NCBI GenBank assembly: GCA_015075225.1
Contig: JABTUQ010000006.1
Coordinates: 1-64,000 of the forward strand
Origin: Burkholderiales bacterium
GTDB lineage: Bacteria > Pseudomonadota > Gammaproteobacteria > Burkholderiales > Nitrosomonadaceae
Direction: 5' to 3'
DNA length: 64,000 nucleotides
Shown: positions 5,637 to 62,144 of the stretch, in pieces
How the letters are laid out: each line of letters starts with the position of its first letter
Numbering within the stretch: the stretch's first letter is position 1
Translations under genes and position numbers: made by a program
The notes under the pieces: model-generated
What the model was told of the DNA's origin: nothing
Seen by the model: the letters and a program-made list of their open reading frames with translations, nothing else
Databases searched by the model: none

Positions 5637-7003
5637 TTATTCCGGACGGGCAAAACGATCAGTGTTGCCGAATTTGTTGTTGCTGAATGACCGTTTCCGG
5701 TTTTCGCGGTTAAATGGCTGCCCAAACCCGGTTTCCCTGCCTCCTTTGTTCTCCTGGGAAGAAGAGCGTGGATTTGGGTTGTCCGACCATGAACGTCTGG
5801 TTTTGTGGGCAGTGGAAGATGGCCGTCTTCCTGGTTTATTGTCGTCACTGCGGCCAAATCTTGGTTTGGTGCGTGGCTCCATTCCTGGTATGACGTGAAA
5901 TTCAAAACGATTGCCGGTAAATCGTTCAATTTTTTTCAGGTGGGCTGCGTCTTTTCCGGAAGCAAACGAAACGGCAATACCCGAAGCGCCTGCCCGGCCG
6001 GTGCGCCCGATACGATGCACGTAATCTTCGGCAAATTTCGGCAGGTCGAAGTTAATGACATGAGTAATGTCGGCAATATCGATTCCACGTGCGGCCACAT
6101 CTGTTGCCACCAGAATCTTGAGTCGGCCTTGGCGCAGTCCTGTCAGGGTGCGTGTGCGTTCACGTTGTGTCATGTCGCCATGCATGGCAGCGGCTTTGTG
6201 TCCCTGGGAAGAAAGATTATCGGCCAGGGAATCGGCATCGCGTTTCGTTGCAGTAAATACGATTGCCTGTTTGATGGTGGCGTCGCGCAGCAGGTGATCA
6301 AGCAACCGGTTTTTGTGCATCAGATCATCCACATAATGCATGCGTTGCTCAATATGATCGAGCCTGGCGTGCTGGGTGGCTATCTGGATACGTTTCGGTG
6401 TTTTCAGTAAACGCGCGGCAATTTTCTCGATTGCACCATCCAATGTGGCCGAAAACAGTAGTGTCTGTCTTTCTGCCGGAGTTTTTGAGGCAATATGCTC
6501 GACATCCTGGATAAATCCCATATCCAGCATGCGATCGGCTTCATCCAGCACCAGCATTTCCAGCCGGGAAAAATCTATCCGGCCACGTTCGATGTGATCG
6601 ATCAAACGACCCGGTGTGGCAACCAGTACATCGACAGTTTGTGACAGGAGTTTGTTTTGCAGAGGGTAGGGCATACCGCCCAGAATGCTTACAACGTTGA
6701 TGCGCGGCAGGAATTTTCCATTTGCTGGTGGCATCGGATACCTGCAGCGCCAGTTCGCGTGTTGGCGTCAGAACATATGCGCGGACCACGACTGCGTACA
6801 GTTGATGGAGTGGCCAGCCGGTGCAGGGCAGGCAGCATGAAAGCAGCTGTTTTTCCGGTTCCCGTCTGAGCACTGGCCATGATGTCATGGCCGGCAATCA
6901 ATTCTGGAATGGCTTGCTGCTGTATTGGGGTGGGTGAGGTATAACCCGCTGCCAGTACGGCTTTTACAATGGCGGGATGTAAATTCAGATTTTCAAATGA
7001 CAC
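5637..7003 (-). pseudogene. rhlE: DEAD-box RNA helicase, RhlE type, reading frame broken twice
   Basis: ATP-dependent RNA helicase of the RhlE group. The GTG at 7003, preceded by AGGAAAA, gives the family start [16 protein letters not shown]. The Q motif ([13 protein letters not shown]) and Walker A ([11 protein letters not shown]) are in one frame. Motif Ia ([13 protein letters not shown]) is in a second frame. Everything from [15 protein letters not shown] through DEAD-type VLDEADRMLDMGF, SAT, ARGIDI and HRIGRTGRAG is in a third. The two breaks lie about 65 bases apart, near 6781 and 6719. Restoring one GC to CCGCGCAT and one AT to AAATGG gives a continuous 457-codon frame, and 1367 bases plus 4 is a multiple of three. 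The C-terminus is the usual basic, low-complexity tail. Sequence error or a recent mutation are both possible. Confidence 0.85.
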
Positions 7004-7177
7004 GTCGGTTTTCCTGATAATAAAAAACACAATGCGCAAACAGGAATGTACCGGAACAAAAATTGTTGGTACCGCTGGCGCATACATAAAAACACATCGC
7101 TGCTAACCAGGGATACTGAGCAATTTCGAAAAGAAACAGAGAAATCTGGAGAGGTCAGGAACGATGAAACTAGGTAA

Positions 7178-7199
7178 CCCTGCCTTACTTAAGGCAGGG
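7178..7199 (-). terminator. hairpin downstream of ettA
   Basis: A perfect 9-bp stem (CCCTGCCTT / AAGGCAGGG) with a 4-base loop lies 58 bases beyond the ettA stop codon, upstream of the helicase start on the same strand. No long T run follows, so termination strength is uncertain. Confidence 0.45.
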
Positions 7200-7256
7200 C
7201 GGCAAGTATACAGTAATTAAAATAAAAGTTAAATTTTTATGGCACTGACTGGTTAA

Positions 7257-8924: not shown

Positions 8925-9177
8925 AAATGCTTTACTAATCCTGAATTTGAATTGAACTGGACAATCTAGAATCTGGGAAGTTTGACCAGAATTGATTAAG
9001 AAAAAGTAGAAAAACTTTCAGCTTTGGCGCTGGGGTTGCGGGGCAAACGATTGATGCTTGCCTATATTAAAGGCCGGAATGTAAAAGGCAAATAGCGGGC
9101 ATCAGTGAAATAAATAGGGATGCAGGTTCTATAAAAATATTGTTTGTCCAAGTAGAAATAAACCAACGGGGAAAGGT

Positions 9178-9357
9178 ATGAAAATAACAGTTCAGTATAA
9201 ATCGGGGGTTTCGCAGATTTTTATTGTGCCGGCGGAAATACATGTTACTGAATTTCGAAAAATGGCTGAACAAGTGGGTGGAGAAGTGCTTAAAGTTGAG
9301 TTCGCCTCGTTCAATTCAAAGCCCGGCCATTACCAGGTTGGGGAAGGAAAGCTTTAA
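9178..9357 (+). CDS. small hypothetical protein, 59 residues
   Basis: ATG at 9178 follows a strong ribosome binding site (GGGGAAAGGT) and opens a 59-codon frame to TAA at 9355. The product starts MKITVQYKSGVSQIFIVPAE and ends HYQVGEGKL. It has no signal peptide or membrane segment and mixed alpha/beta character, and it is not a family I recognise. It sits alone between ettA (divergent) and the EPS operon, about 365 bases ahead of the latter. The good ribosome site and amino acid composition favour a real gene, but no homology could be assessed. Confidence 0.5.
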   Translation: MKITVQYKSGVSQIFIVPAEIHVTEFRKMAEQVGGEVLKVEFASFNSKPGHYQVGEGKL

Positions 9358-9722
9358 AAATGATTTATATAAAAAGGGTTAAAATGTTATCCCTCCATCT
9401 TGACTGTCGCGGTGATGTTCCAAATAAGCTATCTTCCGTTGCGCTGGGTAAGTGCTGCTACAAGTAACACAAATTAAAGATATTGGCTGTTCGAACGATA
9501 TAGACATGAATTGCCAGCATAGTTGTTTAATGGCAGAAGATATGCCCATTAGTCCATATTGGTGACATTAGTCATATCCGGTTTGTTTGAATGGTCGTAG
9601 AGTGGTGCATTAGGGAAAGTCGGCCGATAGTTGGATTTTAATGCCTGGTTGGTGTCTATGGCCTTTTTATAATGAAAGCTATAGCCAAGTATACATTTGA
9701 TTTTCTTAAGGACTCCGTGTGA
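9358..9722 (+). other. intergenic leader upstream of the EPS operon
   Basis: About 365 bases without a convincing gene. It holds the sigma-54-like site at 9531-9546 and a TATAAT box at 9668-9673 without a good -35 partner. AAGGA at 9709-9713 serves as ribosome binding site for the export gene. No riboswitch fold was recognised. Confidence 0.5.
9531..9546 (+). promoter_or_regulatory. candidate sigma-54 (RpoN) promoter of the EPS operon
   Basis: The stretch TGGCAGAAGATATGCC has GG and GC separated by exactly ten bases and matches the -24/-12 consensus TGGCAC-N5-TTGCA at most positions. It lies about 180 bases before the first EPS gene, on the correct strand. EPS/PEP-CTERM loci of this type are known to be tied to RpoN and the PrsK/PrsR two-component pair. 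The site is seen; its use is inferred. Confidence 0.5.
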
Positions 9723-10340: not shown

Positions 10341-10380
10341 TTGATTTGGTCACTGTAATAAATAAAGAGGTGGGCCCGAA

Positions 10381-12014: not shown

Positions 12015-12953
12015 ATGAGCCTGATAGAACGCGCTGCTAGTAGGCTTGCAAAAAAGGATGCAAGTAATTTTATTCCAGATGGCGAATTGCAACAGGTTTC
12101 CCGCTCAAAATATGACTCGGATTCGTCATTTTTTGCGGGTGATTCCATGCATCCTGGTGCTGGAGAAGAGAAAGGTGTCAAGAATGATAGGAAGGAGATC
12201 GATTTAGCTCACGGGGAAAATTCCAGCAAAAGAACGGTCAAGAAGCTTGATATCGATCTGGAGCATCTTCATCGAAGAGGTATTGTTACCCTTGGTCATA
12301 CAAAATCCGAAATAGCTGAGCAGTTCCGGCTAATAAAACGGCCTGTACTGACTAATGCCTTCAATCCGGACAGTGGAATAAAGAACGGTAATTTAATTAT
12401 GGTTACCAGCTCTTTGTCGGGAGAGGGGAAAAGTTTTTGTTCTATCAATCTGGCAATGAGTATCGCAATGGAAATGGATCATAGAGTGTTGTTAGTTGAT
12501 GCTGACGTTGCCCGCCCCTCTATTCCAGCTAATTTGGGTTATAGCCCGGAAGAACCTGGATTGTTGGATCTTATCCGGGATCCGCAATGCCAAATTCCTG
12601 ACGTAATGATGAGAACGAATGTAAAAAAACTTACGTTAATTCCAGCAGGGAGAAGGCATACGCATGCCACTGAGTTACTGGCCAGTCAGAGCATGCGTTC
12701 CATTCTGGTTGAGCTTGCTCAACGCTACCACGATCGAGTGGTGATATTTGATTCTCCTCCTTTATTGTTAACCAGTGAATCACGTGTGCTGGCTAGTCAG
12801 ATGGGACAAATCATCCTGGTAGTTGAAGCAGAAAGGACAACACAGCAGACTGTGAAAGAGGCTTTGCAGCAGATCGAAGCGTGCGATGTGGTCAATCTCA
12901 TTTATAACAAAGCCAAGACACATGGCAGCTCCGGATACTACGGCTATTATTGA
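12015..12953 (+). CDS. BY-family tyrosine kinase, XrtA-associated
   Basis: Cytoplasmic autokinase that partners the chain-length protein. The start at 12015 (MSLIERAASRLAKK) has a strong ribosome site, AAGGTGGAG; an upstream in-frame start at 11877 would overlap the previous gene and is less likely. The 312-residue product has Walker A (SSLSGEGKSF, about residue 134), Walker A' (HRVLLVDADVARPS), Walker B (RVVIFDSPPLLL) and a C-terminal tyrosine cluster GYYGYY that would be the autophosphorylation site. Its stop overlaps the next start (ATGA), pointing to translational coupling. The phosphatase at 39.0-39.5 kb is a plausible counterpart. Confidence 0.93.
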   Translation: MSLIERAASRLAKKDASNFIPDGELQQVSRSKYDSDSSFFAGDSMHPGAGEEKGVKNDRKEIDLAHGENSSKRTVKKLDIDLEHLHRRGIVTLGHTKSEIAEQFRLIKRPVLTNAFNPDSGIKNGNLIMVTSSLSGEGKSFCSINLAMSIAMEMDHRVLLVDADVARPSIPANLGYSPEEPGLLDLIRDPQCQIPDVMMRTNVKKLTLIPAGRRHTHATELLASQSMRSILVELAQRYHDRVVIFDSPPLLLTSESRVLASQMGQIILVVEAERTTQQTVKEALQQIEACDVVNLIYNKAKTHGSSGYYGYY

Positions 12954-14530
12954 TGAAATTATTTGTATGCAGGAATGACAGTTCCTCTCGTTGGAGGGGG
13001 TATTTGAGAATTGTCTGCGTTGCCGGGTTAAGTAGCTGGATTTTTCAGGCAGATGCGGCGGAGTGGAGTATCCAGCCGCGATTAACAATTAGCGAGACTT
13101 ATACTGATAACGTAGGGTTGGGTGGAGGAGGCTTCGGGGGATTTGGAGGGTCGGGCAGAGGAGGTGGCGAATTTATTACACAAATCAATCCGGGGGTGAA
13201 TATAACGGGTGAGGGACGCCGTTTCAAATCCAGTTTGAACTACACTTTGAATAACCTTATATATGCAAAAAATCAGCGATTTGAATCACGGAACCAGCTA
13301 TCCGCCAATGCTACAGCTGAAATTATTAAACAGTATTTTTTTGTAGATGGCCGTGCATCAATCTCCCAGAAAAATGCTTTCTTATTTGCTCCTTTGGCAT
13401 TAGACAATACTAATCGGACTGGAAATCGAAGAAATATTTACACATGGAACATTAGCCCTTATGTGCGGCAACGTTTCAGCAATCTTGCTTCAGGTGAAGT
13501 TCGTTATACGCATGGCGAGGTGAGTTCGAGTGGTAACAGTTTTTCCAATAACAGCTCAGATACAGCAATTTTTTCACTAAACAGTGGCTCGGCTTTCAGG
13601 ACGCTTGGCTGGGGCATAAATTATAGCCACACAGAGATTAGTAGAAAATCAACTGGCTCTGGTTTTGGGTCGCCGGGAACAATTTCGTTGGAAAGAGCTA
13701 CTGGTTCGCTTAGGTATCTCGTGTCATCGCAATTTAGCCTGATTGGTACCGCCGGTTATGAGCGAAACAGTTTTCTTTCAATTAGAGGAAGAACCTCCAG
13801 TCCTTCTTGGACAGTCGGTTTTTCCTGGGCGCCTACCAAAAGGACAAAAATTGACGCATCGGGAGGAAAAAGATTTTTCGGTAATACTTACGCAGCATCA
13901 GTTGATCACCGTACCCGCAGTACAGTATGGAATCTGAGCTACGTAGAAGATATCTCAACTTTTGGTCAGCAATCTCTGGCTGGCGGCTCAATTCTGAACC
14001 CTTCCATGTTAGGACAGTTATTTTCCGGAGTTCAGGGAAGTGAGGCGTTGTTGAGTCAGGGACTCCCGCAATCATTTTCTGATCCAAATAATTTTTTGAC
14101 CAACCGTTTGTTTTTGCTGAGGAATCTGCAGGCTTCACTTACTTTGAATGGCAGGAAAAATTCCTTGGTGTTTCGTGCGTTCAATTATTCCAGAAAATCG
14201 TTCAGCCCGGATCAGGAGGATATGGATTTAGTTGGTATTGGTAATGCGGCTTTGACCAGGAATACTACTCAAACCGGGGGTAATGTATTGTGGAATCATC
14301 GACTGTCTCCGCGTGCAAATGCCAACATCAATTTTGGATACATCAGAACCAGTTATGATTTAACCAGCCAGAAAGATGACAGCATTATTATGTCGGCAGG
14401 TCTAAACAAACAATTTACTTCCAAAATTAACGGATCGGTTATGTACCATCATCTACGCCGTGAATCTGACCGGAATAATGGTGGCTATAGCTCTAATACG
14501 TTGACTGCAATGGTGAGTATGAATTTCTAG
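12953..14530 (+). CDS. XrtA/PEP-CTERM-associated outer-membrane beta-barrel-like protein
   Basis: About 525 residues with a signal peptide (cleavage likely after FQADA). The body is made of alternating aromatic and polar strands rich in Ser, Asn, Arg and Tyr, and the last residue is phenylalanine (VSMNF), typical of outer-membrane barrels. A glycine-rich stretch (GGGGFGGFGGSGRGGG) lies near residue 53. This matches the uncharacterised family that regularly accompanies exosortase A EPS loci. The function may be polymer passage or anchoring; this is not known. The start overlaps the kinase stop (ATGA). Confidence 0.85.
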   Translation: MKLFVCRNDSSSRWRGYLRIVCVAGLSSWIFQADAAEWSIQPRLTISETYTDNVGLGGGGFGGFGGSGRGGGEFITQINPGVNITGEGRRFKSSLNYTLNNLIYAKNQRFESRNQLSANATAEIIKQYFFVDGRASISQKNAFLFAPLALDNTNRTGNRRNIYTWNISPYVRQRFSNLASGEVRYTHGEVSSSGNSFSNNSSDTAIFSLNSGSAFRTLGWGINYSHTEISRKSTGSGFGSPGTISLERATGSLRYLVSSQFSLIGTAGYERNSFLSIRGRTSSPSWTVGFSWAPTKRTKIDASGGKRFFGNTYAASVDHRTRSTVWNLSYVEDISTFGQQSLAGGSILNPSMLGQLFSGVQGSEALLSQGLPQSFSDPNNFLTNRLFLLRNLQASLTLNGRKNSLVFRAFNYSRKSFSPDQEDMDLVGIGNAALTRNTTQTGGNVLWNHRLSPRANANINFGYIRTSYDLTSQKDDSIIMSAGLNKQFTSKINGSVMYHHLRRESDRNNGGYSSNTLTAMVSMNF

Positions 14531-16238: not shown

Positions 16239-17296
16239 GTGCAAAATTCAGATCAGCTTTTTCCACATGAATTACCCGGGATTTCTATTTTATCTCCAGA
16301 TAAATTCCGGATTTGGGATGAATTTGTCATGGCTTGTCCAGAAGCAACTTTTTTTCACCGTGCCGGCTGGAAGCAGGTGATAGAGCAGGCTTTTGGACAT
16401 AAAACATGGTTTTTATATATAGAAGAAGAGGGTGAGATCCAGGGAATTCTGCCTTTGGCAGAAATTAACAGCCTTTTATTTGGGCACAGCCTGAGTGCAT
16501 TACCATTTTGTGTATATGGTGGTATTGCTGCTACATCTGATAGCGCGCGAACGAGGCTGGATCAGGCAGCCCAGATGCTGGCTGCGCAATTGAGAGTGGA
16601 CTACCTGGAGTACCGTAATTTACATCCTCTTCACCAGGATTGGCCTACCAAGAGCTTGTACGTCACATTCCGAAAAGCTATGGATGCAGATGTAGAGCAG
16701 AATATGCTGGCTATTCCCCGTAAGCAGCGTGCAATGGTACGAAAAGGAATTAACCACGACCTGCAAAGTAGTTTGGATGTAACTACAGAGCGTTTCTTTC
16801 AGGCTTATTCGGCTAGCGTTCATCGCCTGGGTACGCCAGTGTTCTCCCGGAACTATTTCCAGCTATTAAAAGCCATTTTTGCGGAAGATTGTGAGCTGCT
16901 TGTTATTACCAAGGATGGCAAGGTAGTCAGCGCAGTCATGAGTTTCTATTTTCGGGATGAAGTATTGCCTTATTACGGTGGTGGACAGATGCCGCCAGAG
17001 ATCTGGCAGGTAATGATTTCATGTACTGGGAGTTGATGCGGCGTGCTTGTGAGCGAGGGTACCGGATTTTTGATTTTGGGCGTAGCAAGCAAGGTACCGG
17101 GTCGTATAGTTTCAAAAAAAACTGGGGATTTGAGCCCCAACCCTTATTTTATGAATATCAATTGCACCAGGCAAAAACAGTTCCAGAACATAATCCACTG
17201 AATCCAAAATATCGGTTGTTCATCCAGGCATGGCAAAAAATGCCATTAACGCTTGCCAATATGATAGGACCTCATATTGTCAGGAATTTGGGTTAA
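16239..17296 (+). pseudogene. FemAB-like (GNAT-fold) protein, XrtA-associated, single-base frameshift
   Basis: Family found only with exosortase A EPS loci and related to FemAB aminoacyltransferases; the substrate is unknown. The GTG at 16239 is the likely start. The first frame runs through KQRAMVRKGI and VLPYYGGG, then is lost near 16985. The second frame resumes with NDFMYWELMRRACERGYRIF and DFGRSKQGTGSYSFKKNW. Adding one base near the GGTGGTGGACAG run gives GGGTDAARDLAGNDF and a continuous 353-codon frame (1058 plus 1 is divisible by three). A mis-called homopolymer is the simplest explanation; otherwise the gene is a very young pseudogene. Confidence 0.82.
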
Positions 17297-19050: not shown

Positions 19051-20584
19051 ATGAACCAGCGAAATATAACGCTATCAATCACCTTGTTGGTAATCGTTGT
19101 CATCCTGGGCATTTATCACGCTACGATCGAATCAATGGTGGCTACATGGAACCGATCTGATACCTATGCTCATGGTTATCTGATTCTCCCGTTCAGCCTG
19201 TATATGATCTGGAAGCAGCGTGCGGCATTAATGACAGCCCAGTACCGTTTAGCCTATTTGCCATTGCTGGCTTTGGCCGGTTTAGGGATGGGGTGGTTGC
19301 TGGCTTCTGCTGCAAATATTCAGGTGGCCGAGCAGTATGCGCTGGTTGCGATGATTCCGGTGATTGTATGGGCTTTGCTGGGTTGGCACGCCTTCAGTAT
19401 CATTTCGTTTCCGCTTGCATATCTGCTCTTTGCCGTACCATTTGGAGAGGTGTTTATCCCTCCTCTCATTGATTTTACGGCCGATTTTACTGTTGGTGCA
19501 TTACAGGCAACTGGTATTCCAGTTTATCGTGAAGGAGTTTCTTCAGTATTCCCAGTGGTAACTGATCGGTTGTGGAAGCCTGCAGCGGTGCGCTACCTGA
19601 TTGCTTCGGTGACGCTGGGGACACTATGCCTACCTGACCTATCACAACTTTACTCGACGGCTGATATTCATCGCATTCTCGATCGTAGTGCCGATCATTG
19701 CCAACGGAATGCGTGCGTATCTGATCGTCATGACCGGCCATCTCAGTGACATGCAACTGGCTGTGGGTGTCGATCATCTGATTTATGGCTGGATCTTTTT
19801 CGGTTTGGTCATGTTGCTACTGTTCTGGATCGGCTCATTCTGGCGAGAAGATCATCTTGATGACACTGTATCCGTTAAAAATCTTTCCCAGATCAGTCCT
19901 GAGTCATCTTCTATATCGCTTAAATCAACGTTGGGTATGGCGGGATTGGTGGTAATGGTTGCCACGATCTGGCCGGTGTATCTGGGTTATTTGAACAGCA
20001 GCGTTGATGTACGCTCGATGCCGGAAATCAGTGTGGTGGATCCTTCGGGAAAATGGGAGGTGAATCCGACTCCCCTTACAAACTGGGTACCGAGCTATAG
20101 CGGCTCTCCCAGACAATTTTTCGGCCATTTTTATCGGGATAACAAGCATATTGGTTTGTATGTCACGTACTACCGGAACCAGAATCAGGATAACAAACTG
20201 GTCAGCTCCACTAATGTTTTGGTAAAAGATCACGATAATGAATGGCGCAATGTGGACAGCAGCAGGCAAAATCTGTTGCTGGGCACGGAAGAACTTACGG
20301 TCAATCAGAATCATCTGCAATCCCGGGCAAGAAAATTTCTGATCTGGAGGTGGTTCTGGCTGGCTGGTCATGAAACAGCAAGTCCTTATGTTGCCAAAAT
20401 GTTCCAGGCATGGAACCAGATCTTGGGTAAAGGCGACGATGGCGCTGAAGTTATTATCCTTGCCGATTTCGAGCATGATCCGGAAGAGGCAGTGTCAGTG
20501 CTGCACGAGTTTATTGCTGATATGAAGCCAGTGATTACCGGAGAGCTTCAGGCTGTTTACGGTGCGCATAACCAGACGAAGTGA
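19051..20584 (+). pseudogene. xrtA: exosortase A fused to EpsI-like domain, reading frame broken across the active site
   Basis: Inner-membrane cysteine transpeptidase that cleaves PEP-CTERM sorting signals, here with the C-terminal EpsI domain in one polypeptide. ATG at 19051 (MNQRNITLSITLLVIVVILG, after AAAGGG) is preferred over 19003. Multiple hydrophobic segments and SDTYAHGYLILPFSLYMIW are in the first frame. The EpsI part (SMPEISVVDPSGKWEVNPTP, then YRNQNQDNKLVSSTN) is in another. Between 19540 and 19630 four changes are inferred: one lost base before TTCTTCAG, TGG changed to TGA, GTGTG to GTG, and TATAT to TAT. Correcting them restores the catalytic EACSGVRYL and a 513-codon frame. Recognition is firm; whether the gene is truly broken is open. 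Confidence 0.88.
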
Positions 20585-23758: not shown

Positions 23759-25225
23759 ATGACCTCTATCAGAAAAGCTGTACTCATCTCTTTTGCCGAA
23801 AACTATTCAACAATGTTTATCGGTTTTATCGGCATCATGCTGATCGCTCGATTGTTAACCCCAGAAGAGATAGGTATTTATTCGGTTGCTTCGGCTGTAA
23901 CCGGTATTGCACACATGATGCGTGATTTTGGAGTCGGCTCTTATTTGGTCCAGGAACAAGAGCTTACCAGGGAAAGAATTCAGACGGCATTGACAGTTGC
24001 TATTATGACCAGCTGGGCTGCGGGGGGGATTTTGTATCTTTCCAGTCCATGGGCGGCTGTTTTTTATAATGAGCCTGGGCTCATGGATTTAATCAGAATC
24101 CAATGTGTCAACTTTTTGATTATGCCATTTACTGCTCCTGTATTGTCTTTATTGCACAGAGATATGCAGTTTTCGGTGCTTTACCGGATCAATGTCCTGC
24201 TCGGTTATTCAGACGATTGTTTCTGTGAGTCTTGCAGTGTTGGGATATGGCTATATGAGTCTTGCCTGGGCTCAGTAGCCAATGTTATGTGTTTGATGTT
24301 GCTGGTAAATGCTGTCCGTCCGCACGATGCTTGGATAATGCCGGGATTAAAAGAGTGGCGGCGTATCGCCAATTTTGGAGTCCAAACAAGCGTTGCTGCT
24401 ATTGTGACTGAAATCGCCATGAATATGAATGACCTGATACTTGGGCGACTTTTAGGATTTCAGGCGGTGGCTCTTTATAGTCGGGCGCAAGGATTAATCT
24501 ACCTGTTTCATCGCGACATGATGAACGCAGTACGTAAAGTAGCTTTTCCAGCTTTTGCACAGGCTGTTCGTGAAAACAGGGATTTGCTGAAAGCTTACCT
24601 ATTATCAGTCAACTATATTACTGTTTTTGCGTGGCCGTTCTATGCTTTTTTAGGTCTGTACGCCGATTCAATCGTTCGGTTGATGTTTGGTGATCAGTGG
24701 GATGCATCAATTCCGTTGGTAAGAATTCTGGTGTTCGCCGGCGCTGTCGGCGCTTTCTGGAATTTATGGAGTAGTGCTTTGCTGGCGATGGGGCATGTTA
24801 ATAAAACCATGCGCAGTGAACTGATTATTCAACCGATTCGTATCGTACTGATTTTTTTTGCTGCTTCTATCAGCATGGAAATGACCTGCTACGCACTGAT
24901 TATCATCTATATACTTCAACTTTTGATCAGCACACATTACCTTAAGCAATCTATTGGATTGAATCTGAAAATTTTATTGCTTAACAATATAAACAGCTTT
25001 GCCGTTACATTAATCAGTATGGTTATTCCTGTTTTATGTTACACATATCTGTCGACACAATTCTCGCCAATCCAATCTCTTTTGATTGGTGCTATTACCT
25101 GTATTCCGAGCTGGTTGCTGGGTATTTTTATCGTTCGTCACCCTATATGTGTGGAATTAACTCGCTTGTTAGGTAATAGGCCAGAGCTTCAATCTTGTAA
25201 TTCTAATACTCGGGAAAAATTATGA
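23759..25225 (+). CDS. polysaccharide flippase (Wzx/MOP superfamily) with a swapped internal frame
   Basis: A 488-residue protein with about a dozen hydrophobic segments, starting MTSIRKAVLISFAENYSTMF; it should flip the lipid-linked repeat unit across the inner membrane. Between about 24197 and 24275 the encoded segment (GYSDDCFCESCSVGIWLYES) is unlike the family. The next frame there reads SVIQTIVSVSLAVLGYGYMS, a normal membrane helix. Two compensating indels, one lost TC near CTGCTCGG and one lost G in GCCTGGGCTC, explain it. The frame stays open overall, so it is listed as coding, but this helix would be wrong if the sequence is correct. The ATGA overlap at 25222 couples it to the next gene. 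Confidence 0.85.
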   Translation: MTSIRKAVLISFAENYSTMFIGFIGIMLIARLLTPEEIGIYSVASAVTGIAHMMRDFGVGSYLVQEQELTRERIQTALTVAIMTSWAAGGILYLSSPWAAVFYNEPGLMDLIRIQCVNFLIMPFTAPVLSLLHRDMQFSVLYRINVLLGYSDDCFCESCSVGIWLYESCLGSVANVMCLMLLVNAVRPHDAWIMPGLKEWRRIANFGVQTSVAAIVTEIAMNMNDLILGRLLGFQAVALYSRAQGLIYLFHRDMMNAVRKVAFPAFAQAVRENRDLLKAYLLSVNYITVFAWPFYAFLGLYADSIVRLMFGDQWDASIPLVRILVFAGAVGAFWNLWSSALLAMGHVNKTMRSELIIQPIRIVLIFFAASISMEMTCYALIIIYILQLLISTHYLKQSIGLNLKILLLNNINSFAVTLISMVIPVLCYTYLSTQFSPIQSLLIGAITCIPSWLLGIFIVRHPICVELTRLLGNRPELQSCNSNTREKL

Positions 25226-26062: not shown

Positions 26063-27040
<978 letters not shown>

Positions 27041-28521: not shown

Positions 28522-29368
28522 GGGCCCGTTTACAATCTTTTCTCCATCGCTGACAATACGGGGATGAAGAGAACGAAATATGCCAGCGATATCAGCAGAG
28601 AACAATTTGCCGGGATAGAGCCACTTCTGCGCAGTGTTCGACGCAGCACCAAGCCCACGACGGTGGATCTATACGAGGTATTCTGTGCGGTGCTGTATCT
28701 GCTGCGCACCGGTTGCCAATGGAGGTTCCTGCCTGGCGAATTTCCCAAATGACAGAGTGTGTACGCCTATTGGCGTAAATGGAGTGAGCCCGACCAGCAC
28801 GGTGTAAGCGTGCTGGAGCGGGCATTAAAAGAATCAGGTTCGCGGCCCGCGAGAAACAGGGGCGCAACGCTTGCAGCACGTTCTTGATCGTGGACGCGCA
28901 GAGCGTGAAGAACACGGACACGGCGGGCCAGAAGGGCTATGACGCTGGCAAGAAGGTATCGGGCATCAAACGCCATATCGCGGTCGATACGCAAGGGTTG
29001 CCGCATGCCATTGCGGTGACGACGGCGGAGGTAACCGATCGCAAAGGCGCATTGCAAGCGCTGGAGCACTGCAGGTCGAGCTTGGGGAAAGTACAAAGTC
29101 TGCTGTGCGACAGCGGCTACACCGGAAAACCATTTACCGAAGGCGTGCGGAAAATCCTGAGAGAGCCCGTCACAGTGCAGATTGCCAAGCGGAGTGAGCT
29201 GCATACCTTCAAGGTCATGCCCAAACGCTGGATTGTTGAGCGTAGCTTTGCCTGGCTGCAGAAAAATCGGCGGCTGTGGAAAAACTGCGAGCGTAAACTC
29301 AATACCAGCTTGCAATTCATTCATCTGGCATTCCTGGCTCTGCTACTCAAGAGATTGTAAACAGGCTC
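28522..29368 (+). mobile_element. IS5-like element, copy 1 (847 bp)
   Basis: Terminal inverted repeats GGGCCCGTTTACAATCT (28522) and AGATTGTAAACAGGCTC (to 29368) bound the element. TTA is present on both sides, consistent with a target duplication. A second copy in opposite orientation lies at 32176-33007. It encodes one transposase that is broken in at least two places. Confidence 0.9.
28564..29360 (+). pseudogene. IS5-like transposase, nonsense and frameshift
   Basis: ATG at 28564 starts MKRTKYASDISREQFAGIEP. After GCQWRFLPGEFPK a TGA at 28750 replaces the TGG seen in copy 2. The frame then continues in the expected phase (SVYAYWRKWSEPDQHGVSVL) until it shifts near 28830-28840. The catalytic part follows: FLIVDAQSVKNTD (first Asp), KVSGIKRHIAVDTQGL, LLCDSGYTGKPF (second Asp) and RWIVERSFAWLQKNRRLW (Glu). 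All DDE residues are visible, but not in one frame. Confidence 0.87.
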
Positions 29369-29625
29369 TTAGAAGAGTAAAGATATATTCATTTTCTGCA
29401 AAATATTCTTTGTTGTGGGACAGTATGATTTCTATAAGCCTGTGGGACTAAACTACTGCTTGTTGAGAGTAAGTAGGGTGGCTCAGTTTGTGGGCAAACG
29501 ACCAAAATCATCTATCTACATGGGCTAAAAAATGTGCGTGAGTTAATATATTTACCGTATTTTATTCTATGAAGTTGTATGAAGCAGAGTTCAGAGATTT
29601 ATACACATCTTAGTTTAGGAGTCGT

Positions 29626-31582: not shown

Positions 31583-32175
31583 TAGATGAGATATTTTGAT
31601 CAACAGTAAATTCGACTACATTGACAAAGCGGTACGCGCTTAAATTATCCGTAAGTAATCCATTATCTTCATTCTCTTTTACCATATACCAGGTTCAATC
31701 ATAGCCCCGAATCATTTTATGCGACGTAAGCTACAATTATGAACAGATTAGATTGCTAATTATCCAGGTTTTGACTAATCCAGTTTCTTCAAATCAGTGC
31801 AGGAATGCTGTGTTCCACCTAAATTGGGATAATATGGCACAAGATCTGTCGGACATATACAGGGCGCTAATCAGATAAAAATTTTTTGACGAGGGTATTT
31901 ATGTCCATAATTCGTAAAGCTGTTTTTCCAGTAACAGGCTTAGGTACACGTTTTTTGCCTGCTACCAAGGCAAATCCCAAGGAAATGCTGCCGGTAGTAG
32001 ATAAGCCACTGATTCAATATGCGGTTGAAGAAGCAGTTGAAGTAGGTATTACTGAAATGATTTTTGTGACCAACAGCGCCAAGCGTGCGATTGAAGATCA
32101 TTTTGATAAAAATTATGAGTTGGAAAGGAAGAAAAAATATGACTTGCTCGCCGAGTTGCGTGCTGTCGTTCCTAA

Positions 32176-33007
32176 GAGTCTGTTTACGATCTTCTGAGTA
32201 GCAGAGCCAGGAATGCCAGATGAATGAATTGCAAGTGGTATTGAGTTTACGCTCGCAGTTTTCCACAGCCGCCGATTCTTCTGCAGCCAGGCAAAGCTGC
32301 GCTCAACAATCCAGCGTTTGGGCATGACCTTGAAGGTATGCAGCTCACTCCGCTTGGCAATCTGCACTGTGACGGGCCTTCCAGGATTTTCCGCACGCCT
32401 TCGGTAAATGGTTTTCCGGTAGCCGCTGTCGCACAGCAGACTTTGTACTTTCCCCAAGCTCGACCTGCAGTGCTCCAGCGCTTGCAATGCGCCTTGCGAT
32501 CGGTTACCTCCGCCGTCGTCACCGCAATGGCATGCGGCAACCCTTGCGTATCGACCGCGATATGGCGTTTGATGCCCGATACTTTCTTGCCAGCGTCATA
32601 ACCCTTCTGACCCGCCGTGTCCGTGTTCTTCACGCTCTGCGCGTCCACGATCAAGAACGTGCTGAAGCGTTGCGCCCTGTTTCGCGGGCCGCGCCAACCT
32701 GATTTTTATCGCCCGCTCAGCACGCTTACACCGTGCTGGTCGGGTCCTACTCCATTACGCCAATAGGCGTACACTCTGCCATTTGGGAAATTCGCCAGGC
32801 AGGAACCTCCATTGGCAACCGGTGCGCAGAGATACAGCACCGCACAGAATACCTCGTATAGATCCACCGTCGTGGGCTTGGTGCTGCGTCGAACACTGCG
32901 CAGAAGTGGCTCTATCCCGGCAAATTGTTCTCTGCTGATATCGCTGGCATATTTCGTTCTCTTCATCCCCGTATTGTCAGCGATGGAGAAAGATTGTAAA
33001 CGGATCC
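32176..33007 (-). mobile_element. IS5-like element, copy 2, inserted in galU
   Basis: Same element as at 28522-29368 in reverse orientation. Ends are GAGTCTGTTTACGATCT and AGATTGTAAACGGATCC. The left flank reads CCTAA and the right flank AAGAG, compatible with a TAA duplication that has lost one T. Against copy 1 it is shorter by about 15 bases, through many one- and two-base losses at short repeats. Confidence 0.9.
32184..32966 (-). pseudogene. IS5-like transposase, multiple frameshifts
   Basis: ATG at 32966 gives the same start MKRTKYASDISREQFAGIEP. Breaks follow at CTGCTG reduced to CTCTG, GTGTG reduced to GTG (after FPKW), AAATGG reduced to AATGG, and several places in the catalytic half. 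Fragments with the DDE surroundings (LIVDAQSVKNTD, RWIVERSFAWLQKNRRLW) remain. Unlike copy 1 it keeps the Trp codon after FPK. Confidence 0.85.
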
Positions 33008-33272
33008 AAGAGTATCTTGTGTCTATATCCGTCAGCCTGAGGTGCTTGGCCACACAGTGCTGTGTGCAAAACCAATTGTAGGAAATGAGCCTTTTGCAGT
33101 ATTACTGGCTGATAATCTGATCAATGGCTACTGTGGCGGTGCTATAGATCAAATGGTAAATCTATTTCAAGAATATCAATCAAGCATTCTTTGCGTTGAG
33201 CAAGTGCCATTATCTGAAACTGGTAGGTACGATTGTCCAGATCAATACAGCTGATGGTGGCTGGAAAATGTA

Positions 33273-34375
33273 ACTAGTGTTTAATTGCGTTAATAAGGTT
33301 AATTATTTATACTAGGCATTATGCCTAGAAAAGCGATAGAAATCACTCTTACGGAAGAGCAAAGAAACCATCTGGAGAAGATCGTGCACATAGCGCGGAG
33401 CGCAGGATGGTTGAGCGAGCGGATCATTTAGCCTGCGCTGCAGGCAAGCAGAACCAGACGGTTGCTGCAGAGTGTGAAACCACAGAATTTCGTGTCAGTA
33501 AATGGCGCAAACGGTATGCAAAGCATGGTATTGCCGGACTTAAAGATGAGCGACGACCCGGCAAACCTGAGGCATATGGAAAGCATTCAGGGACAAACTG
33601 TTATCCAGGTTGGATAGCGAACCACCTCAAGGCCTGGCCAGATGGGATTGTCCAACTTGGCAAAGCAACTGGGTCAAGTACTCATGCAGTTTGGCGAGCA
33701 TTAAAGAAAGAAGGATTTATCCGCATAGAGCACGTAGCTGGTGCATCAGTACTGATCCTGAGTTTGCAGAGAAATCGGCAAATTATCGGGCTATATTTGA
33801 ATCCGCCTCTTAATGCGTTAGTTTTAAGATTGATGAGAAACCCAGTATCCAGGCTTTGGAACGAGAAACCGGCTATATCGAAACGCGCGACCAAAGCTTG
33901 TGCGTGCCTAAAGCGCATACAAGCGTCATGGCACGCTCAATCTGTTTGCCGCATTAAATGTGGCCACGGGCCACATCAAAGCTCAAACCACTCAAAGCAA
34001 AACACGAAGATTTTCAGAATTTTATGGATCTTGTAATACAGGATTTGCCTGAAAACAAAGAGGTGCACGTTATTTTGATAACTACTGCACACACAAAAGG
34101 AACGATGAGTGGCTGAACAGATATTCAGGCCGAGTACATTTCACTTTACGCCCACTTCGGCAAGCTGGTTAAATCAAATTGAAATATGGTTCGGTATCTT
34201 ATCCCGTAAGACATTAAAGGAGCAAGCTTCAGTAATGTCACAGAATTAAAGAAGCAATCGAAGCATTTATTACTCGTCACAACCAGAATGCTCAGCCATT
34301 TAAGTGGCGCCGTCCTGAAGTTAAAGGCAGTCAAATAAAAAATACAATAGCTAATTTACGCAATTAGACACTAGT
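33273..34375 (+). mobile_element. IS630-like element inserted in galU
   Basis: Inverted ends ACTAGTGTTTAATTGCG (33273) and CGCAATTAGACACTAGT (to 34375) match at 16 of 17 positions. The left flank is TA, as expected for IS630, but the right flank reads AT, perhaps because bases were lost. Size is about 1.1 kb with one transposase gene in several frames. Confidence 0.82.
33321..34367 (+). pseudogene. IS630-family transposase, multiple frameshifts
   Basis: It starts MPRKAIEITLTEEQRNHLEK. Later pieces include an HTH part (TTEFRVSKWRKRYAKHGIAG), THAVWRALKKEG, the second catalytic Asp in VILDNYCTHK (one G missing in the DNA), and SASWLNQIEIWFGILSRKTL with the catalytic Glu. It ends KNTIANLRN. At least six frame changes are needed to read it through. 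Family assignment is firm; the product is non-functional as read. Confidence 0.83.
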
Positions 34376-34612
34376 ATTGTTGAGAAACCCTGTCCTGATC
34401 AAACCCCTTCCAACTTGGCCGTTATCTGTTAACGCCACGAATCTTTACTTTTTGAGTATACCAGTTCGGACCGGGTGAAATACAGCTTACCGATGCTATT
34501 GCCCAATTGCTTGGTGAAGAAAAGTGCTGGCTTACCGTTTTAAAGGCAAGCGTTACGTGGAGATAAGCTCGGCTACTCACAAGCTACAGTGGAATTTGCG
34601 CTTAGACACACT

Positions 34613-35837
<1,225 letters not shown>

Positions 35838-52080: not shown

Positions 52081-54485
52081 ATGGTTAATATTGAAATTGA
52101 TGGCAAACAGGTAACTGTTGAAAAGGGCAGTACTGTAATGGATGCTGCCAAACAGATTGGAATTTATATTCCTCATTTTTGTTATCACAAAAAATTATCA
52201 ATAGCAGCAAATTGCAGAATGTGTCTTGTGGAGGTTGAGAAAGCGCCAAAGCCATTACCTGCTTGCGCAACCCCGGTTATGGAAGGAATGAAAGTAGCGA
52301 CGCATTCCCAGCAGGCTGTAACAGCGCAAAAAGGTGTGATGGAGTTTTTGCTGATCAACCATCCGCTGGATTGCCCAATATGTGACCAAGGTGGTGAATG
52401 CCAATTACAAGATCTGGCAGTTGGGTACGGTTCAAGTGGTTCACGGTATCAGGAACCCAAGAGAGCGATAACCAACAAGAACCTTGGATCCCCTTATATC
52501 GACTGATATGACCCGTTGTATTCATTGTACGGTGTGTACGTTTCGGTCAGGAAATTGCGGGCATTATGGAGCTTGGAATGGCTGGTCGAGGCGAGCATTC
52601 CGAAATTCTTACTTTCGTCGGTAAAACTGTTGATTCGGAACTTTCTGGTAATGTTATAGATTTGTGTCCGGTAGGGGCATTAGTTAGTAAGCCGTTTCGT
52701 TATTCAGCTCGAACTTGGGAGTTATCGCGTAGGAAATCAATCAGTCCGCATTGTGGGTTAGGCAGTAACTTGGTGGTGCAAGTGAAAAAAAATCGCGTTA
52801 TGCGCGTATTGCCTCGTGAAAATGATGCTATAAACGAGTGTTGGCTATCTGACAAAGATCGTTTTTCATATGAAGGATTAAATTCGGAAGATCGTATAAC
52901 GGTTCCGATGATCAAAAAATCCGGACAATGGCAATCCTGTGATTGGCAAGAGGCTTTGAACTTTGCGGTTGAAGGTATCAACAATGTTATAACAAAACAG
53001 GGTGCACAAAGTTTGGGTGCGTTGGGATCTCCCCATAGCACATTGGAAGAGCTCTATTTATTACAGAAATTGATGCGTGGACTAGGTAGTCATAATGTCG
53101 ATCATCGGGTACGTCAGTCAGATTTTCGTGCAGATGCTGTTTTACGGGGAACGCCATGGTTAGGCATGAAGATTGCTGAGATATCACAGTTAAAAGCAAT
53201 ATTGATCATCGGCAGTACATTGCGAAAAGACCATCCCTTACTTGCCCAGCGTGTGCGACAAGCGGTAAAGCAGGGTGCGGAGTTGAATTTAATTAATCCG
53301 ATTGGTGATGAGTTATTAACCAGGGTTTCCCATAATGCTGTAGTTGCACCTTCTGCCATGTTGGACATGGCATTACAGGTGCTTAAAGCTACAGCAGATA
53401 TTAAGGGTGTTTCCATACCTGGGCATATTAAATCTGTAGCAAGTAAAGTTGAAATTTCAGAAGTCGCACGAGGAATTGCAAATAGTCTTATTAATCAATC
53501 GCCTGCGGCCATTTTCTTGGGGAATATCGCACAGCATCATCCTCATTATGCTGATTTGCATTGTGTTGCACAGGCTATATCCAAAATAACAGACGCCCAT
53601 TTTGGCCTTCTGGGTGAATCTGCTAACAGTGTAGGAGCATATTCTGCAGGTGCATTGCCATGGAATGCCGGAGTTAATATGGTAAACAAAACCATTTCCG
53701 ATAAGGTCGGGTTAAATGCTGGGCAGATGTTGGGCTTGTGTACGACTGATGGTGATGCAGCCTGTAGTGCTTATATATTGTTGAATCTTGAGCCCGAGTT
53801 GGATTGCTACGATACAGGCCGGGCGGTTCAGGTATTGAAGAATGCAGGATTTGTAATTTCACTAAGCAGCTATAAGGGTAATATTGCCGAGTATGCTGAT
53901 GTCATCTTGCCCGTGGCTCCTTTTACCGAAACTTCCGGAACTTTTATTAATACGGAAGGCAGAATCCAGAGCTTTAATGGAGTGGTGCCGTCGGCAGGAG
54001 AAACACGTCCTGCTTGGAAAGTATTACGAGTATTGGCAAATTTGATGCAACTGAACGGTTTTGAATATGATTCATCAGAACAGATTCGTGCCGAAATAAT
54101 ATCGGCTGATACTGAATTTGCTAGTGGTCTAAATAATGTTTTGGAAACCTACTCAATATCTGATACCAGCCAAAAAAATATTGGTATTGAAAGAATTGGG
54201 GAGGTAACAATTTATCAGGCAGATCCCATTGTAAGGCGTGCTGGATCACTTCAGAAAACACACGACTCAGCGCTTCCCATTGCTTTTGCTTCACCGATTT
54301 TACTTAACAAATCCGGAATAAAAACTGGAGAAACAGTTAAAGTTAAGCAACAAAGTAAAGAAATTCAAGTGGAGATTTCTTCAGATGCAAATTTGCCAGA
54401 TAATTGTGTTCGACTAGCATGTGCCCATACACAGACATCCGAATTGGGTGGGATGTTTGATGAAATCAGGCTGGAAAAGTTATAA
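52081..54485 (+). pseudogene. nuoG: NADH-quinone oxidoreductase subunit G, frame disrupted near an iron-sulfur motif
   Basis: 75-kDa iron-sulfur subunit. ATG at 52081 (MVNIEIDGKQVTVEKGSTVM). The [2Fe-2S] ligands (HFCYHKKLSIAANCRMCLVE) and LDCPICDQGGECQLQDLA are in the first frame, which stops at 52506. The frame resumes at MELGMAGRGEHSEILTFVGK. In between, the DNA still encodes ISTDMTRCIHC and RCVRFGQEIAGI in other phases. Restoring TC near GGATCCCC (about 52490) and CG in TGTACGG (about 52530) gives a continuous 803-codon frame. The lost stretch contains ligands of another [4Fe-4S] cluster, so the gene as written would not work. Confidence 0.88.
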
Positions 54486-56790: not shown

Positions 56791-57096
56791 TTGGTATCAC
56801 TATCACATTATCTTGTGTTGGGTGCGATTCTGTTTGCCATTGGGGTCGTTGGTATTTTTCTTAATAGGAAAAATGTCATTATCCTGTTGATGTCAATAGA
56901 GTTAATGCTATTGGCTGTTAACATGAATTTTATTGCTTTTTCATACTATTTGCAGGATATAGCAGGTCAGATTTTTGTGTTTTTTATACTGACAGTTGCT
57001 GCTGCTGAAGCTGCTATTGGATTGGCAATTTTAGTTGCGTTATTTAGAAATCTGCGAACCATTAATGTAGATGATTTAGATAAGTTAAGAGGTTGA
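56791..57096 (+). CDS. nuoK: NADH-quinone oxidoreductase subunit K
   Basis: Small membrane subunit, 101 residues, three helices. The buried glutamates of the proton path are in [20 protein letters not shown] and [20 protein letters not shown]. The start is TTG at 56791, giving [20 protein letters not shown] after AAAGGTAATT. Intact. Confidence 0.96.
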
Positions 57097-57157
57097 ACTT
57101 CACTCTTTTCTTTGGAAAAGTAGTTTGATAACCCGATTCTGGTATTTGATGGCTTAA

Positions 57158-59103
57158 ATGGAAAATCTTTATTTATTGATTCCGATGGCACCTTTATTAG
57201 GAGCCATGATTGCTGGTCTTTTTGGTCGGCATATAGGTTTGGTATGGAGTCATCGTGCAACCATTACCTTGGTAGCATTGTCGCTCATTTCATCTATTCT
57301 TGTTTTTATTGATGTGTTACAGGGGAATACCTATAACGGTAGTGTTTATACTTGGATGACATCAGGCGAAACAATCTTTGAAGTTGGTTTTCTGATCGAC
57401 ACATTATCAGCCACGATGATGGTTGTTGTTACTAGCGTATCACTCATGGTACACATTTATACGATTGGGTATATGTATGGTGATCCGGGTTATCAACGAT
57501 TTTTTAGCTATATCTCTCTTTTTACGTTTTCGATGTTGATGTTGGTCATGTCCAATAATTTCCTGCAATTGTTTTTTGGCTGGGAAGCCGTTGGGCTGGT
57601 TCTTTTATCTATTAATTGGGTTCTGGTACGCGATCAGCGGCTGGTATGCGGCACTTGAAAGCATTTCTTGTCAATAGGGTAGGTGATTTTGGCTTTTTGC
57701 TTGGTATCGGCTTGGTTTTAATGTACTTTGGAACATTGGATTATGAGCTGGTATTTACTCATGCTGAACATATGGCATCTCGTTCGGTGGAGATAGTGCC
57801 TGACCAGCCTTGGATGTTAATGACAGTAATTTGTTTATTGTTGTTTGTAGGAGCAATGGGTAAATCAGCACAATTTCCGTTGCATGTTTGGCTGCCAGAT
57901 TCGATGGAGGGTCCAACACCTATTTCAGCTCTTATACATGCAGCTACCATGGTGACGGCTGGTATTTTTATGGTGGCTCGTATGTCACCTTTGTTTGAAC
58001 ATTCTGAAACTGCATTGTCCGTTGTTCTGATTATCGGAGGAATTACGACTCTGTTTATGGCATTGGTTGCAGTAGTACAGAATGACATCAAACGAGTTGT
58101 TGCATTTTCTACGTTGTCCCAGTTAGGTTATATGACAGTTGCCTTGGGTGCATCGGCTTACTCAGCGGCTGTTTTTCATTTGATGACACATGCCTTTTTT
58201 AAGGCAGTTCTTTTTCTTGGAGCCGGTTCAGTTATTATCGCCATGCACCATGAGCAGGACATGCGGAAAATGGGCGGACTTAGAAGATATATGCCCATAA
58301 CTTTTGTGACCATGTTTATTGCTGCTTTGGCCAGTGCGGGTGTTCCTGGTTTTTCGGGATTTTTTTCAAAAGATGCAATTATTGAGGCGGTGCAGTTATC
58401 TCAAATTAGCGGATCGGGGTTCGCCTATTTTTGTGTTCTAACAACAGTTTTTGTGACTGCGCTATACACGTTTAGACTGATGTTCATGACTTTTTATGGG
58501 AAGCCACGCATGGATGAGCATACCCGGGAGCATTTGCATGAATCACCTTGGGTTGTGACGGTCCCGTTGACTGTGTTGGCAATTCCTACGATTGCTTCAG
58601 GGTGGCTAATTGGCGTGATACTTTTTGGGGATTATTTTTCTGGTGTAATAGAAGTGCAGGCTCAACATGATGTGGTTGCTGCCATGGGTGAACATTACAC
58701 AGGAATCATGGGTATGATCATTCATTCCTTTTCAACCATTCCATTCTGGCTAGCAATGGCTGGGATCTTTACAGCTTGGTTTCTATATCAGTATAAGGTT
58801 GAGCTTCCAGGAAAAATCAAGAGTATTGCAGGACCTGTTTATACTCTTCTGGATCGTAAATATTACATCGACGAATTTTATTCGTGGTTATTTGCCGGTG
58901 GATTGCGTTCATTAAGTAATTTTCTCTGGAAGTATGGAGATATCAAGGTTATTGATGGTTTGATGGTAAATGGTTCAGCCAAGTTTGTAGCCTGGTTTTC
59001 TGCTTTGGCGCGCCGTTTCCAATCTGGCTATATTTATCATTATGCGTTTAGCATGATTGTGGGTGTTTTTATATTGATGAGTTTGTGGCTCTATCAGTTC
59101 TAG
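57158..59103 (+). pseudogene. nuoL: NADH-quinone oxidoreductase subunit L, frame disrupted
   Basis: Distal antiporter-like proton-pumping subunit. ATG at 57158 (MENLYLLIPMAPLLGAMIAG). The first frame holds up to FGWEAVGLV, then fails at about 57601 and ends at 57658. Sequence between gives YLLIGFWY in another phase. The third phase begins with TRSAAGMRHLKAFLVNRVGD and continues through PLHVWLPDSMEGPTPISALI and HAATMVTAGIF (the key His/Lys region) to the C-terminal lateral helix at 59103. TACGCG reads as TACACGCG with one AC removed; the other change is in a CTTTTAT run. Total about 649 codons if corrected. Confidence 0.88.
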
Positions 59104-59181
59104 GATTCAGAGACGAAGTAGTTTTTTAGTCTATCTGAGATAAATAAAACGCATAGATATGCAATTCGAGACGAAAAAATC

Positions 59182-60652
59182 ATGTTGTTTGGATTTCCAC
59201 TGTTAAGTCTGATTATCTGGCTGCCAATCATTTTTGGTTTGGTCGTGTTAGTAATGGGTGATCGGAATATAAGATCTACGCTGGCTTTCTAACCGGGGCT
59301 ATAGTCGGGTTTTTTAGCACTTCCGGCTATATAGCGATTTGGATCCATCAACGAGCGCAATACAATTTACCGAGAGCATACTGCTTGGTTTGAGCGGATC
59401 ACGTTTATTACTCTTGGGAGTGGACGGTATATCAATGCCGTTGATCATCTAATTGCTTTATAACCCCACCAATCATTGCTGTCAGTTATCTGAGAGCGTA
59501 TCCCAGTATATGGGTGCATTTTTGATAATGTCTGGCGTTGTTAATGGTGTATTTTCATCCCTGGATGCTATTTTATTCTATTCCTTTTGGGAAGCTTCAC
59601 TCATCCCAATGTTTATTATTATCGGTGTATGGGGAGGGCCGAACAGGATTTACGCGGCCATTAAGTTCTTTCTTTATACCTTATTAGGATCTTTACTAAT
59701 GCTCGTTGCCCTGATTTATCTTTACCAGGTTTCGGGTGGTAGCTTCTCAATTCTCGACTATCATCAGCTGCAACTGCCGATGACAGCACAAACTTTGATT
59801 TTCATTGCATTTGCGCTTGCATTTGCAGTCAAAGTTCCAATGTGGCCAGTACATACGTGGTTACCTGATGCGCATGTTGAAGCGCCTACAGGGGGTTCTG
59901 TTGTACTTGCTGCTATTTTGTTAAAGCTTGGTGGATATGGATTTCTCAGATTTTCTCTGCCGATTACTCCAGATGCAAGTCATGAGCTTTCAGGTGTCAT
60001 GATTGCTTTGTCTCTCATTGCAGTTGTGTATATTGGAATAGTTGCACTGATGCAGCAGGATATGAAAAAACTGATTGCTTATTCATCTGTTTCTCATATG
60101 GGATTTGTAACCCTGGGTTTTTTTCTGTTCAATGCTTACGGAATTGAAGGGGCAATGGTGCAGATGATCTCTCATGGATTCATATCAGGAGCGATGTTTC
60201 TTTGTGTAGGAGTTTTATATGATCGTTTGCATTCTCGGCAAATTGCAGATTACGGTGGTGTTGTGAACAAAATGCCGATCTTTGCTGCACTCTTTATGCT
60301 ATTTGCCATGGCTAATTCCGGTTTGCCTGGTACTAGTGGTTTTGTCGGTGAGTTTATGGTCATTATGGGGTCTATTGAAGTTAACTTCTGGTATGGTTTC
60401 TTCGCTGCACTTACTTTAATACTTGGCGCTTCCTATACTTTGTGGATGTATAAGAGAGTTATTTTTGGTGAAATCACCAATAGTAATGTGGCGGAATTAA
60501 AGGATATTTCTTCTCGTGAATTCTTAATCCTGGCTATTTTGGCCGTTCTAGTACTGGGTTTTGGCATTTATCCATTACCTCTTACTGAAGTTATGCATGT
60601 CACTGTAGATAATTTGCTTGAGCATGTAGCGCAAACGAAGCTACCCGAATAA
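59182..60652 (+). pseudogene. nuoM: NADH-quinone oxidoreductase subunit M, several indels in the 5' quarter
   Basis: Antiporter-like subunit. ATG at 59182 (MLFGFPLLSLIIWLPIIFGL) stays open only to about 59292. From 59500 on, SQYMGAFLIMSGVVNGVFSS and all later motifs are normal, among them FWEASLIPMFIIIGVWGGPN, PVHTWLPDAHVEAPTGGSVV and the end at 60652. Between 59270 and 59490 recognisable pieces occur in all three phases (LTGAIVGF, DPSTSAIQFTESIL, GVDGISMPLII). At least five small indels are therefore present, including ACGCGC reduced to ACGC and TCTCT reduced to TCT. This is the most damaged stretch of the nuo operon. Confidence 0.86.
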
Positions 60653-60702
60653 CATTTTTAGATGATATAGGTTTTTTCCTGACAGGAAATTAAGGATTTT
60701 TC

Positions 60703-62144
60703 ATGGATTTTTTGTTACCTGACTTTACACCAGCCTACCCTGAAATTTTCCTGTTGTTCATGGTTTGTGTGGTGATGCTTGCTGATTTATTTGCCGGTGA
60801 AAAAAATCGTTATCTGGCATTCTATTTATCTCTCTTGACGCTTGCTGGAGCAGCACTGGTCACCTGTGGAGTGGCATCATCTGATATTAGATATACATTT
60901 TTCGGTATGTTTGTCGGTGATGCGATGTCGGATACACTGAAACTGTTGATCTATCCAACAGTTGCAGCAGTTTTGATTTATTCACGTTCTTATATTAGTG
61001 CCCGCGGTTTGTTGAGAGGTGAATTTTTTAGTCTTTCACTTTTTGCTACTTTGGGCATGATGGTGATGGTTTCTGCTAATCATCTAATTACGCTTTATCT
61101 GGGGCTTGAACTTCTCGCGCTCTCACTTTATGCAATGGTAGCGTTACAACGTGAATCAGCCATCGCTACAGAGGCCGCTATTAAATTTTTCGTTTTGGGT
61201 GCATTGGCTTCCTGATTTTTACTTTATGGCATGTCAATGTTATATGACAACCAGATACTACAGTTACCAAGTTGGCGAAGGTCATTCAATCGGGTAAAGC
61301 AGACCATGAAATCTTTATTATTGGTTTGGTTTTTGTTGTGGCAGGCATCAGTTTTAAGTTGAGTGCTGTTCCTTTTCATATGTGGGCGCCTGATGTTTAT
61401 GAGGGCGCCCCTACCGCAGTTACCTTATTCATTCGTTCAGCACCCAAGTTTGCTGCATTTGGTTTCGTTATGCGATTGTTGGTTGAAGGGCTGGGTGATC
61501 TTGTAGCAGATTGGCAGGGAATGCTTGTGATACTGGCTGTGGCTTCCATGGCTGTCGGAAATATCGTGGCGATTGCGCAACAAAATATCAAACGGATGCT
61601 GGCATACTCCACGATTTCACATATGGGCTTTGTGCTGCTTGGCTTTATTGCAGCTGGTGAAAATGGTTACAGCGCTTCCATGTTTTATGTAATTGCTTAC
61701 GTGCTGATGACCCTGGGGGCTTTTGGCGTCATTCTGCTAATTTCCCGTGAAGGATTCGAAGCTGACAAGATTAGCGATTTCAAGGGGCTTAATCAACGTA
61801 GCCCATGGCTTGCTTTTATGATGTTGCTGGTGATGTTTTCGATGGCTGGGATTCCACCAATGATAGGTTTCTATGCAAAACTATCTGTTTTACAGGCTGC
61901 CTTAGAGGCTGGTTATATTTGGCTCGTAGTTGTGGCCGTTGTACTTTCACTGATCGGTGCGTTTTACTATTTGCGAATTATCAAATTCATGTATTTCGAC
62001 ATACCAGAGGAAGTTCAGCCGATATTATTCAGGCCAGATGTAAAGGTTCTTATTAGTTTGAATGGGCTGGCTATAGTTCTGTTGGGTATGTTTCCTCAAA
62101 TGCTGATGGGGTTAAGTTTATCTGCCATCCAGCATTCGATGTGA
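60703..62144 (+). pseudogene. nuoN: NADH-quinone oxidoreductase subunit N, stop codon and frameshift in the middle
   Basis: Antiporter-like subunit. ATG at 60703 (MDFLLPDFTPAYPEIFLLFM). The first part ends at TGA (61213-61215) directly after FFVLGALAS, where the family has Gly. The same phase continues [11 protein letters not shown] for a short way. The next phase starts near 61262 with [14 protein letters not shown] and runs through [20 protein letters not shown] to the normal C-terminus. The length is one base short of a multiple of three. Last gene of the nuo operon; it converges with the dehydrogenase gene 30 bases later. Confidence 0.87.

Follow-up and report, generated by a model that had tools for sequence, protein, structure and literature searches.

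Frame breaks in a Nitrosomonas-like genome assembly are very probably residual long-read errors

The window, by which we mean the whole 64,000-nucleotide stretch of DNA analysed here, comprises bases 1–64000 of contig 16 in an assembly of 2,483,958 bases and 19 contigs that is 95.5% complete. It contains genes for subunits of respiratory complex I (nuo genes), the exosortase gene xrtA, a DEAD-box RNA helicase and copies of three families of insertion sequences (IS). Based on the NuoH protein of the window, whose identity is supported by family assignment, the closest genomes belong to Nitrosomonas (SJ624 with 93% identity, N. nitrosa and N. mobilis with 89%), and the assembly is Nitrosomonas-like. 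A plasmid origin was considered for the region at 52–60 kb and dropped, as a megablast search of this region found no plasmid match.

When we compared 37 genes of the window to their relatives, seven were found to be broken. In these, the proteins of the relatives fall into pieces in different frames when aligned to the window. Length differences were located by DNA alignment, and breaks were scored with a purpose-written frame-aware aligner. DNA alignments used four relatives for the nuo genes and a single relative, genome G001, for the helicase, xrtA and the FemAB-type gene (16.2–17.3 kb). The broken genes and the positions of their breaks are:

6720..6775, minus strand: DEAD-box RNA helicase (rhlE of the initial annotation); two net two-base losses, compared to G001 only
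16980..17005, plus strand: FemAB-type XrtA-associated gene; one one-base loss with adjoining substitutions, scored as a single shift at 16987, compared to G001 only
19538..19626, plus strand: xrtA; a one-base loss, a stop and two two-base losses within about 90 bp, compared to G001 only
52489..52531, plus strand: nuoG; a one-base gain and a two-base loss, four relatives by DNA and two by frame-aware alignment
57602..57630, plus strand: nuoL; a one-base gain and a two-base loss, four relatives by DNA and two by frame-aware alignment
59275..59490, plus strand: nuoM; frame events of both signs within 215 bp, four relatives by DNA and three by frame-aware alignment
61213..61271, plus strand: nuoN; an in-frame stop and a net length change at 61247–61271, four relatives by DNA and two by frame-aware alignment

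In six of the seven genes, the events are bunched within about 30–215 bp and mix losses, gains and stops, with added bases lying beside losses in nuoG, nuoL and nuoM. For nuoM, the frame-aware aligner reports eight frame events against one reference and nine against each of two others. All four nuo genes are broken in patches, and the remainder of each shows normal conservation. Family names were taken from the unbroken proteins of relatives, where NuoG, NuoL, NuoM, NuoN, exosortase A and the FemAB-type XrtA-associated protein pass the NCBIfam cut-offs. The helicase passes no single cut-off, and the name rhlE is thus that of the initial annotation only; the family is known, whereas the subfamily is not settled. 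Complex I is expected to be necessary to an ammonia oxidiser for reverse electron flow, and four of its subunits are among the broken genes.

Together with 35 genes from outside the window, 72 genes of this assembly were surveyed; the loci L105, L106 and L109 yielded no comparable genes. Of these 72, 13 were flagged initially. After dropping calls at gene edges and one shadow frame, seven of 37 genes are broken in the window and one of 35 outside (L103:9455–9496). The survey script ignores the outermost 12 residues of each alignment, which also removes an event at 7028. The dropped calls are 16217, 45991 and 46872 in the window, which lie at or upstream of the gene start judging by other references, L103:1591 and L104:11755 outside the window, which are gene edges, and L107:19322, where the reference resembles a shadow frame. 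With the same script, the control genome G001 has five flagged genes out of 86 and the control genome G012 seven out of 78. Three of the flags in G001 mirror genes broken in the window, one is at a gene start and one is L101:16202; in G012, one flag mirrors the L103 gene and the others are mostly near gene ends.

Two loci of this survey deserve a separate description. The L103 break lies just past the window and consists of two one-base losses close together; the gene is a long one (the frame of the relative exceeds 970 aa). At L101:16202, the G001 homologue of the open window frame 12950–14530 is split by a frame change, which looks like a break in G001.

It had been proposed in the initial annotation that the breaks in rhlE, xrtA, nuoG, nuoL, nuoM and a flippase gene arose by the loss of one unit from short two-base repeats. 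Comparison to unbroken homologues bears out the breaks in all of these but the flippase, and adds nuoN and the FemAB-type gene. The sole flippase-like frame that we identified (23759–25225) is open, and its 488 aa span almost all of the Pfam profile; it has no homologue on the fetched contigs of relatives. Among the seven sites named as contracted repeats, three (19606, 19627 and 57628) have a net two-base loss that is consistent with a contracted two-base repeat. At two further sites (52530 and 6719), two bases are indeed missing, and the relatives are too distant to decide whether a repeat was there. For 6781, the alignment places the two-base loss a few bases off the named GC repeat, and 59280 falls within the nuoM patch of eight to nine shifts. 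Furthermore, the initial annotation missed events of other kinds. One base is gained at 52489 and at 57602, and two bases are gained near 59372 and at 59484–59490; there are also one-base losses and two in-frame stops (19563 and 61213). That the frame returns when a repeat unit is added cannot separate contraction from other losses, because after a net loss of two bases the frame returns with any two bases that are added.

IS elements offer a comparison within the assembly itself. The copies in the window are:

26080..27019, plus strand: IS3-type copy 1, without its 3' end; over 940 bp, six substitutions and no gap compared to a clean copy
28526..29372, minus strand: second IS5-type copy of the window; 26 substitutions, four deletion and two insertion events compared to the majority of 13 copies
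32162..33003, plus strand: IS5-type element; seven substitutions, 16 deletion and four insertion events compared to the majority of 13 copies
33389..34374, plus strand: third IS (helix-turn-helix transposase); seven substitutions, 15 deletion events and no insertion compared to L183
34630..35817, plus strand: IS3-type copy 2; 12 substitutions, 22 deletion events and one insertion event compared to a clean copy, right end computed from the alignment

The spacing between the two IS3-type copies drifts by 18 bases along their length. This element of 1,213 bp has 28 matches in the assembly, namely copy 1, six clean copies, 15 noisy near-full copies that include copy 2 (L129 aligned only to position 1028), and six fragments that were left out (L133–L138). 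The six full clean copies differ from each other at a single column out of 1,216 and have no indel over about 7.3 kb summed, whereas the noisy copies contain about 1–8% errors. In total, the noisy copies have 317 deletion, 84 insertion and 247 substitution events (9–40, 0–18 and 5–37 per copy), so that deletions exceed insertions by about 4 to 1. With the frame-aware aligner, the 15 noisy copies yield 224 frame events, whereas the six clean copies have none. The error density in the noisy copies is even right to the ends of the element.

Most deletion events remove one base (228/317), and 64 of the 317 remove two. The one-base deletion rate increases with run length, from 0.6% per base in runs of one to 1.0, 3.0, 4.8 and 8.0% in runs of two to five; runs of at least six have 4.8%, a value from seven positions only. 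Transitions account for 201 of the 247 substitutions and transversions for 46. With this element, for which the source sequence is known, we assessed a base-calling or assembly step that specifically collapses two-base repeats. Whole repeat units were removed in 21 of the 64 two-base deletions. Of the 64, 14 are losses of homopolymer units compared to 4.95% expected (P = 2e-6), whereas losses at dinucleotide repeats are not enriched, with seven cases (11%) compared to 8.2% expected by position (P = 0.27). Thus, there is a homopolymer effect and no detectable effect of two-base repeats. Although a lost repeat unit would fit three of the seven named sites, a collapse of two-base repeats is very unlikely given this result, the predominance of one-base deletions and the frequent insertions and substitutions. 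We conclude that the repeat-contraction rule is not supported. The more general suggestion of a base-calling or assembly artefact holds up, since clean and noisy copies of one IS coexist and the error profile is nanopore-like.

The excess of transitions and of deletions in homopolymers in the noisy IS3-type copies would also be expected if the strain were a slippage mutator through loss of mismatch repair, as had been suggested as the other option. Our check of this option covered mutS and mutL. Both genes are open (891 aa and 626 aa) and full length: the proteins align nearly end to end with their homologues in G001 and G012 at 80–85% identity, and they pass the NCBIfam cut-offs across the whole profile. 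Indels were not seen at all comparable loci, with none in the six clean IS3-type copies and no accepted break in 30 of the 37 window genes, and deletions in the noisy copies also occur outside runs. A loss of mismatch repair is therefore not supported, and we give a mutator strain almost no credence.

Could the breaks reflect genuine decay, with pseudogenes and old degenerate IS insertions? Some of the sequence does look like real change, such as the nucleotidyltransferase gene that IS elements interrupt at 32.2–35.8 kb. Some of the differences among the IS3-type copies are real inherited variants: L122 and L128 have many substitutions in common, and four of the six substitutions in copy 1 occur in both, which makes copy 1 a member of a real sub-lineage of the element. 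Several IS5-type copies differ mostly by substitutions. Nevertheless, 14 of the 15 noisy IS3-type copies have more indel events than substitutions, ties and near-ties set apart, with substitutions more numerous or about equal in L122 and L128. Identical deletions turn up in different copies in a pattern that is not tree-like, and 537 of the 584 overlapping pairs of shared deletions are incompatible with inheritance. In addition, nuoG, nuoL, nuoM and nuoN are broken in patches and otherwise normally conserved. We thus regard genuine decay as highly improbable. It is extremely unlikely that part of the indels is real; this would imply that the strain mutates in patches with a bias to deletions, so that some IS copies stay intact while other copies, and also complex I subunits, accumulate many changes.

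Indels exceed substitutions in the window copy of the third IS (15 to 7). Of the five other copies of this IS, three were retrieved for comparison, and L183 is the one among these three that has a long open frame. They also do so in the IS5-type copy at 32162 (20 to 7) and in L143, L149 and L151, i.e. in four of the 13 IS5-type copies. Two IS5-type copies, L140 and L141, have no gap. In the others, including the copy at 28526, substitutions exceed indels, and several copies are intermediate, with few gaps. The IS5-type reference is the majority of divergent copies. Most of these copies are dominated by substitutions, so that real divergence is mixed in and the picture is less clear than for the IS3-type element.

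We consider it very probable that the breaks are residual long-read errors, most likely from Oxford Nanopore reads, in an otherwise corrected assembly. The broken genes then most likely reflect a familiar and ordinary data-quality artefact rather than unusual mutation in the bacterium. The spectrum in the IS3-type copies is that of partly corrected nanopore reads, with more deletions than insertions, a dependence on homopolymers and more transitions than transversions. In two published studies, deletions are the commonest nanopore error and about half of all errors lie in homopolymers or short repeats, with transitions also prominent (PMC8486125), and nanopore errors are rich in transitions (PMC7671305), which resembles our data. 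According to PMC8486125, dinucleotide runs of 4–6 bases are mostly sized correctly in nanopore reads. PacBio reads are described in PMC7671305 as rich in insertions with raised transversions. Our ratio of deletions to insertions is higher than in raw nanopore reads; the same source reports that corrected nanopore reads keep mostly deletions as consensus-corrected leftovers.

Long-read errors would thus remain in short patches and in repeated mobile elements, while the remainder of the assembly was corrected. For the IS repeats, correcting reads may have been placed on copies that were already clean, leaving some copies perfect and others with errors at the level of a draft. This is similar to nanopore drafts after short-read polishing, for which Wick and Holt 2022 (PMC8812927) describe that short reads prefer the error-free instance of a repeat, so that errors stay in another instance. 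Polishing that assigns each read to a single place yields such a mix of clean and noisy copies of one repeat. Unlike in that study, the noisy IS3-type copies here contain about 1–8% errors, and short patches are also found in single-copy genes, for which repeats by themselves cannot account. In these genes, errors may have persisted in short dense patches where correction failed; alternatively, gaps between accurate contigs may have been filled from long reads. The even error density to the ends of the IS3-type copies agrees with gap filling no less than with failed polishing.

Some points run against residual long-read errors. Part of the IS differences are real inherited variants, as in L122 and L128, and the picture of the IS5-type copies is less clear. 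The share of two-base losses in single-copy genes is also somewhat above the IS baseline. The single-copy genes of the window and L103 contain nine two-base losses, eight one-base losses, two one-base gains and two two-base gains, plus two stops; two-base losses are thus 9 of 21 frame events, compared to 59 of 224 in the noisy IS copies with the same aligner (P = 0.075).

These results caution against using this assembly to infer pseudogenes, a mutator phenotype or the absence of complex I. They also illustrate that uncorrected long-read errors can be diagnosed without access to reads, by setting the copies of a single IS from the same assembly side by side.

Lastly, we describe two arrangements of IS elements. 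In the region 31880–35817, the interrupted nucleotidyltransferase frame (Pfam NTP_transferase, presumably galU-like) is disrupted by the IS5-type element at about 32162–33003. The third IS and an IS3-type copy follow directly after this insertion, so that three IS families form one nest. The noisiest IS3-type copies, L131 and L132, have 90 and 95 events and are neighbours on contig 14 (152047–154370) in opposite orientation; this region is perhaps a stretch of low read depth.
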